A DNA stretch of 64,000 bases from Halorientalis sp. LT38. Lineage in GTDB: Archaea; Halobacteriota; Halobacteria; Halobacteriales; Haloarculaceae. The translations under genes and the position numbers were made by a program. Of the stretch, positions 42,287 through 57,096 are shown piece after piece. Under the pieces are notes generated by a model. That model was given only the letters and a program-made list of their open reading frames with translations. It was not told the origin of the DNA and ran no database searches. The stretch covers positions 496,001-560,000 of the forward strand of contig NZ_JAYEZN010000001.1 of the NCBI RefSeq assembly GCF_037031225.1. Direction: 5' to 3'. Positions within the stretch are counted from its first letter, which is position 1, and every line of letters starts with the position of its first letter.

Positions 42287-42961
42287 TCAGTCGGTCGTCG
42301 ACGCGCCCTCGAACCGGCTGGCCGGCAGGAGGAGTTCGTTGACGCCGGGGAGGTACTTGACGTTGAAGACGACCTGCGTGTCCGCCGTGACGGGGGCGCT
42401 GATGCATGAGAGGCGGATGCCGCGGTCGACCATCTCCTGGGGGAGGACGTGGCTGGTCGGCGGCGGGACCTCGCCGTCGAGGACCGCGACCGCGCAGTTG
42501 GTGCAGGCCCCGCCGCGGCAGGCGAACGGCCAGGCGTGGCCGTCGTCCTCGGCCGCCTCGAGCAGCGACTGGTTGGACTCGACGCGCAACTCGCCGAAGG
42601 CCTCCTCGTCGAGGCCGGCCCGGGCGGCCTTCTCGAAGAGGTCGTCGTCGGTCAGTTCCCAGCCGTGATCGGTCAGGACCTCGTAGTCGAGGTACTCGAC
42701 GCGGTTGCCCGCCGGTTCTGGGTCGGGCTCCTCGCGTCCGTCGTCCGTCGGACCGCCGTTTTCGGAACCCAGTTCGCGACCCTCGCCGTCGGGCTCCCAC
42801 CCGTTCTTGATCCGTTCGTAGGCCCGTTTGACGCGCCGGAACTCGCCGGCGGAGCCGCCGTGGTCGGGGTGTGCCTCTTTCACCCGCTGCCGGTAGGCGT
42901 CGCGGACGGCCGCGTCGTCCGCGTCCGGCTCGAGACCGAGCACGTCGTATGGGGAAGCCAC
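42287..42961 (-). CDS. J-domain / [2Fe-2S] ferredoxin fusion (224 aa)
   Basis: Residues 1-57 are a J domain with HPD at 31-33, which stimulates Hsp70 ATPase. After an acidic linker (about 58-88) a plant-type ferredoxin domain has Cys148, Cys153, Cys156 and Cys186 (C-x4-C-x2-C-x29-C), the standard [2Fe-2S] ligands. The start is GTG at 42961 (VASPYDVLGL). A longer in-frame ORF adds 26 residues with no J-domain similarity. Haloarchaeal DnaJ-ferredoxin fusions exist in family knowledge. Role could be electron transfer tied to DnaK, or Fe-S assembly. Confidence 0.87.
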   Translation of the reverse strand: MASPYDVLGLEPDADDAAVRDAYRQRVKEAHPDHGGSAGEFRRVKRAYERIKNGWEPDGEGRELGSENGGPTDDGREEPDPEPAGNRVEYLDYEVLTDHGWELTDDDLFEKAARAGLDEEAFGELRVESNQSLLEAAEDDGHAWPFACRGGACTNCAVAVLDGEVPPPTSHVLPQEMVDRGIRLSCISAPVTADTQVVFNVKYLPGVNELLLPASRFEGASTTD

Positions 42962-43129
42962 GTCCGGTCTAGCCGTCGCGCGTATAAATCCCCTCGTCCC
43001 ACCACAACATCTGCTGGATGGGGGCTGGGCACACGACACACGGGGCGCCGACCGGCCGTCCGGCTGTCGGGCGCTGGTGACCTGATCGCCGATCCCGAAC
43101 GAGGTGCCCGAAAAGCGGGAACGCGACGT

Positions 43130-56244: not shown

Positions 56245-57096
56245 CTAGGTCCTGAGCGCCATCCTGGTGAGGACCGAGAGGCCGAACGGGATCCAGCAGG
56301 CGGTCAGGGCGATCACGCCGAGCAGCGAGACGACGCCGACGCCGTCGAGGGCCACCAGCACGGCCGGCGCGAGGACGCCCCAGCCGCCGAAGACGACCAT
56401 CCCGACCTCGGGGATCGAGAGGAGGTAGCCGACCACCAGGATCGTACAGAGACCGACGACGAGGTTGACCGTCAGCGGGAACGCGGGGGCGAGCGAGGCG
56501 AACAGGAACACGGGGTAGAGGAAGACCATCGTCCCGATCTGGATGATCGAGCCGGGCGTCAGCGGCACCCGGATGCGGTCGAAAGACTGCTCTGTGTACT
56601 CCGTGCGGGTCGCGTAGCCGCCGGCCGTTGTCGCGCTGGCGCCGCCGGGTCGGGTCCCGGACTGGTCCCACGCGGCCGACCCACCGGACGCGGACTCGGC
56701 TGCGTTTGCGGTGTCTGCCGTATCGCCAGTCGTCGTCTCCCCGCCCGCTGACGCGCGTTCGTCGGTCGCCGTTTCGCCACCACCGGAATCGGAATCGGTG
56801 GCCGCGGCCTCGTCTGCCGCGTCGGCATCGTCTTCCGCGCCGGAATCGACCGCGAACCCGTCCGCGGTCTCGACGTATCGGGCGTGCCCCAGCCGGTCGT
56901 AGCGGGCCCGCTCCTCGGGGTCCGTCAGCACCGCTTTGGCCCGGGTGACGCGTTTGAACCGCGCCTCGGCCTCGGGGTGGTCGCTCACGTCGGGATGGGT
57001 CTCTTTGGCCTGCTCGCGGTAGGCCGCGCGGATCGTCTCCGCGTCGGCGTCGGGCGAGACGTCGAGCACGTCGTAGAAGTCGGGGTGGGAGGGCAT
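56245..57096 (-). CDS. membrane-bound J-domain protein (283 aa)
   Basis: N-terminal J domain (residues about 5-70) with HPD at 34-36 and RYDRLGH, a disordered acidic Ser/Ala/Glu-rich linker (about 85-170), and four hydrophobic segments in residues about 182-283. This suggests a DnaJ-like co-chaperone tethered to the membrane, which may recruit DnaK to membrane proteins. No partner Hsp70 is present. The ATG at 57096 begins MPSHPDFYDVLDVSPDAD, a clear J-domain start. Divergent from menB across a 162-bp gap with a hairpin. Confidence 0.85.
   Translation of the reverse strand: MPSHPDFYDVLDVSPDADAETIRAAYREQAKETHPDVSDHPEAEARFKRVTRAKAVLTDPEERARYDRLGHARYVETADGFAVDSGAEDDADAADEAAATDSDSGGGETATDERASAGGETTTGDTADTANAAESASGGSAAWDQSGTRPGGASATTAGGYATRTEYTEQSFDRIRVPLTPGSIIQIGTMVFLYPVFLFASLAPAFPLTVNLVVGLCTILVVGYLLSIPEVGMVVFGGWGVLAPAVLVALDGVGVVSLLGVIALTACWIPFGLSVLTRMALRT

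Follow-up and report, generated by a model that had tools for sequence, protein, structure and literature searches.

The window, i.e., the whole stretch of 64,000 nucleotides of Halorientalis sp. LT38 analysed here, encodes on its minus strand a protein, which we call J-Fer, made of an N-terminal J domain followed in one chain by a ferredoxin domain of the haloarchaeal [2Fe-2S] type. We propose, while giving this reading somewhat less than an even chance, that J-Fer is a specialised class C co-chaperone of DnaK, whose ferredoxin arm would set where and when DnaK engages. The initial annotation had recognized the fusion and given no strand; Pfam DnaJ and Fer2 matches, both above their cut-offs, bear it out. 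On the plus strand, the interval 42287-42961 contains an internal stop in the same frame. The gene is organized as follows (counts refer to the 57 family members described below):

42287 to 42961, minus strand: J-Fer gene, 224 amino acids plus stop codon (42287-42289), GTG start; homologues share its domain order.
42983 to 42988, minus strand: TATA-box-like sequence TTTATA, beginning 27 nt ahead of the J-Fer start codon, with a TA at -10.
42800 to 42961, minus strand: J domain, residues 1-54 (Pfam DnaJ match 4-51; model helices 4-8, 16-30 and 38-52).
42863 to 42871, minus strand: HPD tripeptide, residues 31-33, invariant in 57/57.
42704 to 42799, minus strand: acidic linker, residues 55-86 (residues 60-74 with pLDDT <50 in the model).
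42335 to 42703, minus strand: haloarchaeal-type [2Fe-2S] ferredoxin domain with the haloarchaeal N-terminal stretch, residues 87-209 (NF041393, Fer2 and 1doi fold match).
42494 to 42520, minus strand: cluster loop C148-R-G-G-A-C153-T-N-C156, three cysteines invariant in 57/57.
42404 to 42406, minus strand: fourth ligand Cys186, invariant in 57/57.
42302 to 42352, minus strand: C-terminal tail, residues 204-220 (LPGVNELLLPASRFEGA), with L210 and L212 found in 57/57 sequences and P205 in 55/57.

Residues 4-51 match Pfam DnaJ (PF00226) with 40.0 bits, for a gathering cut-off of 27.8, and residues 125-190 match Fer2 with 50.3 bits, for a cut-off of 21; both families match 29/29 members of alignment A1 (E<=0.01 for DnaJ), the 29-member J-Fer profile that divides the fusion from plain ferredoxins. 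Among the ferredoxin families of Pfam, Fer2 alone matches (E<=1), and the NCBIfam model NF041393, "ferredoxin Fer", recognizes residues 87-209 (161.2 bits, cut-off 150). By its CX4CX2C...C ligand pattern and its fold, the ferredoxin half is of the haloarchaeal [2Fe-2S] type, and cluster binding is predicted. On the other side, the DnaJ domain, the HPD tripeptide and the Hsp70 partner encoded in the genome place J-Fer, by sequence, among the class C J-domain proteins; no zinc-finger or DnaJ_C domain is matched in Pfam, so that J-Fer is not a class A DnaJ proper, and no HSCB_C domain is matched either (Pfam, E<=1). An AlphaFold2 model built on a 29-row alignment (mean pLDDT 84.9, pTM 0.62) is consistent with two domains joined by a tether: the J helices (block pLDDT 90-96 over residues 1-50) and the ferredoxin are confidently modelled, residues 60-74 and 221-224 poorly, and the J domain is modelled without the extra helix that full-length J domains have next. 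The closest solved structures are the ferredoxins 1e0z (Halobacterium salinarum) and 1doi (Haloarcula marismortui), the ferredoxin half being placed on 1doi with a Z of 22.3 and an rmsd of 1.4 over 127 residues. The listed rows of this structure search cover the ferredoxin half, and the J fold was assigned from Pfam and from the helices of the model.

To describe the family, we used 57 non-redundant J-Fer sequences, the window included, obtained by greedily thinning 69 long-flank loci at 85% BLAST identity. Their pairwise identity is 55% on average (minimum 41%, maximum 86%), and the closest relatives of the window protein (74-76%) come from four genomes of the same genus. H31, P32, D33, C148, C153, C156 and C186 are present in every one of them: the HPD and the four cysteines that the initial annotation had described as intact stand at exactly the positions that it gave. 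Other J-domain positions are conserved as well (Y23 in 55/57, R24 in 56/57, F41 and A47 in 57/57), and we take their counterparts in DnaJ to contact DnaK; residue 20, aligned here with DnaJ R22, presumably a DnaK contact too, is variable among the 57 sequences. The linker, measured in 56 of the 57, varies from 20 to 80 residues with a median of 34. The ligand cysteines are the sole cysteines of 43 members and a fifth one is found in the 14 others, a distribution that speaks against a family-wide thiol switch.

Upstream of the gene, a TATA-like box and a TA are disposed as in leaderless haloarchaeal promoters, and this layout recurs. Indeed, an A/T-rich hexamer is found at -24..-34 in 51/57 loci, versus 16/57 at a control position, and a TA at -9..-11 in 44/57; when a strict TATA string is required at -24 to -36, 14/57 loci have one, versus 1.1% in shuffled upstream sequence. 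The start codons, as assigned, are GTG in 49 cases and ATG in 7, the remaining sequence (L103, whose start is misplaced) having none. The layout supports a GTG start and an independent transcript for J-Fer. Because the HPD and the four cysteines are invariant in 57 sequences and the promoter layout recurs, J-Fer is a real conserved gene and no chance frame. In one draft contig (C1 of G152, locus L172), the J-Fer frame is broken right after the HPD, perhaps by sequencing error or by decay.

We then counted J-Fer by profile search. With A1, no best match of a Halobacteria genome falls between 6.4e-74 and 9.4e-56, and J-Fer is present in 279 of the 391 Halobacteria genomes (hand count), a number that includes two incomplete copies (G152, interrupted as described above, and G301, matched by the profile up to position 194) and for part of which the matched ranges were seen. 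Among the 112 genomes devoid of it, 81 belong to family f3, 13 to f1, 10 to f2, 3 to f4 and 5 to others; in f3, only 20 of the 101 sampled genomes carry J-Fer and 81 do not. In a phylum sample of 392 genomes (81 of them Halobacteria by row count), J-Fer was counted in none of the 311 non-Halobacteria genomes, those with no match at all being listed in part; their best match is at 3.1e-13, which we interpret as matching a single domain. The distribution check that had been suggested was hence carried to the scale of the phylum, and the "unusual combination" of the initial annotation holds for biology at large and fails within Halobacteria, where the fusion is common, J-ferredoxin fusions being moreover known in plants and Thaumarchaeota according to passages of PMC3564930. 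J-Fer is dispensable, since it is missing in 112/391 Halobacteria and since, in the family to which the window belongs, all 13 genomes devoid of it retain DnaK. It occurs in Haloferax profundi, H. mucosum, H. marinum and H. larsenii. The gene can also reside on large haloarchaeal plasmids: 21 plasmid records match J-Fer and 11 of them cover at least 80% of the query. A mobile-element origin was considered and no sign of it was seen; viral contigs gave 11 pattern matches and no relative. Two genomes of genus g4 harbour two diverged J-Fer copies each (L084/L085 in G044; L102/L103 in G043, on different contigs).

The ferredoxin half can be compared with the haloarchaeal ferredoxins Fer/Fdx (1doi, 1e0z; NF041393), with which it shares the fold, the four ligands and the haloarchaeal N-terminal stretch, and from which it differs by the added J domain and linker, by a separate clade, by CRGGAC instead of CRAGAC in the cluster loop and by a longer LxL tail instead of QNRVI. 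The window genome itself also encodes a housekeeping-type ferredoxin (L116), 46% identical to the ferredoxin half of J-Fer and showing no J domain within its 138-residue open frame; J-Fer is therefore not the sole ferredoxin copy of this genome. We built a FastTree phylogeny of the ferredoxin halves of the 57 fusions, 15 housekeeping-type ferredoxins and the ferredoxin of L159, rooted on L116. All 57 J-Fer halves form one clade (support 0.855), separate from the 15 sampled housekeeping-type ferredoxins, and the L159 ferredoxin, located behind an HTH-like region, groups with them (support 0.93). Compared with the housekeeping form, J-Fer has near-fixed differences, i.e., CRGGAC for CRAGAC, S185 (55/57) for T, and a new tail, that of the 15 sampled housekeeping ferredoxins being shorter and typically HLDYLQNRVI. 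As the ligands are kept yet these near-fixed positions differ, the ferredoxin half probably serves a purpose other than bulk metabolism; conservation for electron transfer would look identical to conservation for sensing. The J half, which is similar to other short J domains of haloarchaea, is less informative: in a tree of about 54 residues, of poor resolution and in which L073 and L075 gave no segment, J-Fer monophyly was not recovered, the smallest clade with the 57 J-Fer J domains having 62 tips (support 0.758) and also taking in the short haloarchaeal J domains L070, L071, L074, L117 and L118. These data make the fusion look like a haloarchaeal product.

Related ferredoxin domains are also found behind other partners. 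In L159:388-1185 (minus strand) and L174:699-1496 (plus strand), a J-Fer-like ferredoxin lies C-terminal to a region with weak HTH matches, below the Pfam cut-offs, so that the HTH assignment is tentative and an Fe-S transcription regulator possible; this fusion is present in 11/242 Halobacteria genomes of two genera, all 11 of which also have J-Fer. In L175:181-1407 (plus), L176:941-2152 (minus) and L178:1095-2264 (minus), two tandem UspA (universal stress protein) domains are joined to a haloarchaeal [2Fe-2S] ferredoxin. The UspA-ferredoxin fusion is found in 13/242 genomes, of which 12 are devoid of J-Fer and one (G186) has both; we do not claim that it functionally replaces J-Fer, 12 of the 13 genomes belonging to f3, which mostly lacks J-Fer anyway. 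Finally, L177:2-1495 (plus) contains in one frame part of a protein kinase, truncated at the edge of the retrieved sequence, a winged-helix region (HrcA-like match) and a ferredoxin. As far as these domain matches tell, the partners (HTH-like, tandem UspA, kinase/winged-helix) share a theme of regulation and stress, which suggests that the related ferredoxin domains form a portable unit for iron-sulfur sensing or for docking.

It is because the sister fusions share this theme that we place the co-chaperone reading first. The J domain of J-Fer would bind DnaK and trigger ATP hydrolysis, and Hsp70 triggering is what best accounts for an invariant HPD. The ferredoxin arm would, less certainly, supply the specificity: it may dock on ferredoxin-partner or Fe-S proteins and/or report whether its cluster is oxidised, reduced or lost. 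DnaK would in this manner be engaged at redox or Fe-S proteins, chiefly under oxidative or metal stress, and J-Fer might work by analogy like CDJ3 and CDJ4 of the Chlamydomonas chloroplast, which passages of PMC6006212 describe as binding a [4Fe-4S] cluster and interacting with ATP-bound HSP70B.

The DnaK that this co-chaperone would need is there. We found it in the window genome (G000:C1:758550-760295, E 1.7e-241), in 141/146 genomes of the window's family and in 96/96 of the good-quality ones; the partner assumed by the initial annotation thus exists. The window genome contains six J-domain matches, among them J-Fer itself and, about 2 kb away from DnaK, a DnaJ-like gene; at L124 lies the coding sequence of a DnaJ-like protein that is distinct from J-Fer and has cysteine repeats. 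A second J-domain protein lies in the window itself (56245-57096, minus strand, 283 aa), with an N-terminal J domain carrying the HPD and a hydrophobic C-terminal half. The proximity of J-Fer to dnaK is weak: grpE-dnaK is within 8 kb in 2/57 loci for about 0.28 expected, i.e., a simple Poisson P of about 0.03, computed without correcting for relatedness among the genomes or for our having chosen to look there. In one of the two (G003), J-Fer is the next gene on the same strand, about 580 bases after grpE-dnaK and with its own promoter-like sequence, dnaJ being elsewhere on the same contig (at 145760); in the other (G341), J-Fer and dnaK are about 5 kb apart on opposite strands. No neighbour family holds a fixed position near J-Fer over the 57 loci (up to 8 kb per side, some cut by contig ends). 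The commonest family is seen in 14 loci and the next two in 6 each; all three are scattered in distance and on both strands, and the rest occur in at most 4 loci, mostly of near relatives, antisense shadow frames of J-Fer having been set aside. The genome context of these 57 loci names no client for J-Fer.

Another way to put the two domains together, less probable in our opinion than the co-chaperone reading and yet its closest competitor, is to see J-Fer as a donor of electrons or clusters carried by the chaperone, as the initial annotation had envisaged. The J domain would bring DnaK to a scaffold or acceptor and the ferredoxin would supply the electron for Fe-S assembly, combining HscB-like and Fdx-like roles in one chain. 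In the ISC pathway, HscB (Hsc20), a J protein, and Fdx, a [2Fe-2S] ferredoxin, work with an Hsp70 and are encoded by separate genes. The window genome encodes a NifU_N/IscU-type scaffold and has no HSCB_C match (E<=0.001), which leaves the HscB slot open, and the ferredoxin fold and ligands of J-Fer are intact. However, HscB has an HSCB_C domain and J-Fer possesses no such scaffold-binding domain; its ferredoxin is of the plant type and not of the adrenodoxin type to which the isc operon ferredoxins belong; and the lack of a neighbour family common to the 57 loci, together with the 112 Halobacteria genomes without J-Fer, also speaks against this role. Elsewhere, dedicated J proteins of Fe-S assembly exist (PMC9596805), and CDJ3-5 recruit HSP70B to cluster biogenesis, according to a review (PMC9407819); both points favour the donor role.

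Going further along the lines of the sister fusions, the [2Fe-2S] ferredoxin could be a portable C-terminal redox or Fe-S sensor placed on several stress outputs (J/DnaK, HTH, tandem UspA, kinase/winged helix), J-Fer being then a redox-gated Hsp70 switch in which the cluster state would decide whether, or on which proteins, DnaK fires. We regard this general form as doubtful, a little more so than electron donation.

Covalent linkage of the two domains through a variable linker would also suit protection in cis, the other role that the initial annotation had envisaged, the J domain holding DnaK near to help its own ferredoxin fold or re-acquire its cluster, so that the ferredoxin would be the client. 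This seems quite improbable, as the housekeeping ferredoxin L116 manages without any J domain and as pure self-protection would not need the near-fixed tail and cluster-loop differences of J-Fer.

The resemblance with DnaJ-Fer, which includes CDJ3-5 of Chlamydomonas, is clear: in both cases a J domain and a ferredoxin domain are fused in one chain and DnaK/Hsp70 is present. DnaJ-Fer occurs in archaea and chloroplasts, J-Fer in archaea. Petitjean et al. 2012 (PMC3564930) reported DnaJ-Fer from Thaumarchaeota and Viridiplantae alone and stated that it was contained in no further lineage; the haloarchaeal fusion was hence not counted there and looks independent. Indeed, the ferredoxin types differ, CDJ3 and CDJ4 having the [4Fe-4S] bacterial type and J-Fer the haloarchaeal plant-type [2Fe-2S] domain, which is why J-Fer looks like an independent fusion set apart by its ferredoxin. 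That it would be a vertical or horizontal relative of the plant and Thaumarchaeota proteins is very unlikely, since, compared by ferredoxin type, the tested DnaJ-Fer members are [4Fe-4S] whereas J-Fer matches Fer2, 1doi and NF041393. A looser parallel is found in Synechocystis, where the ferredoxin Fed7 and the DnaJ-like Sll1384 interact in a two-hybrid test and the ferredoxin domain of eukaryotic DnaJ-Fed has Fed7 as its nearest homologue (both from passages of PMC4284462); these are two separate proteins and J-Fer is one chain. As for an annotation or assembly artefact, i.e., two genes wrongly read as one, or a frame arisen by chance in a genome rich in GC and in spurious open frames, it can practically be discarded, the fusion recurring in many families of the order with both domains passing curated scores and promoter-like sequence lying upstream of the J domain.

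Current gene names hide the fusion. All 11 plasmid records with a full-length J-Fer (at least 80% of the query) are named "ferredoxin Fer"; we also observed that the plasmid records use this one name for full-length J-Fer and ferredoxin-only matches alike. The J domain vanishes from the name because the NF041393 equivalog matches the ferredoxin half alone. Some curated haloarchaeal genomes, we believe, label such genes as DnaJ N-terminal domain/ferredoxin fusions. Full-text searches of the open-licence literature gave, among the matches listed, no description of the haloarchaeal J-ferredoxin fusion, and it is not mentioned in passages of PMC7601130, PMC8305020, PMC6267482 and PMC4500146 or in a term search of PMC3287961. 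The combination is thus already known in kind, and the ferredoxin type, the lineage and the sister fusions of the haloarchaeal version are absent among the literature matches listed.

It would hence seem that ferredoxins of unrelated types were joined to a J domain on two occasions or more. In that case, the coupling of Hsp70 with an iron-sulfur protein would be a recurrent solution and not a plant oddity. Moreover, Haloferax is a genus with genetic tools, so that the role of J-ferredoxin proteins would be testable in a fast-growing single cell.
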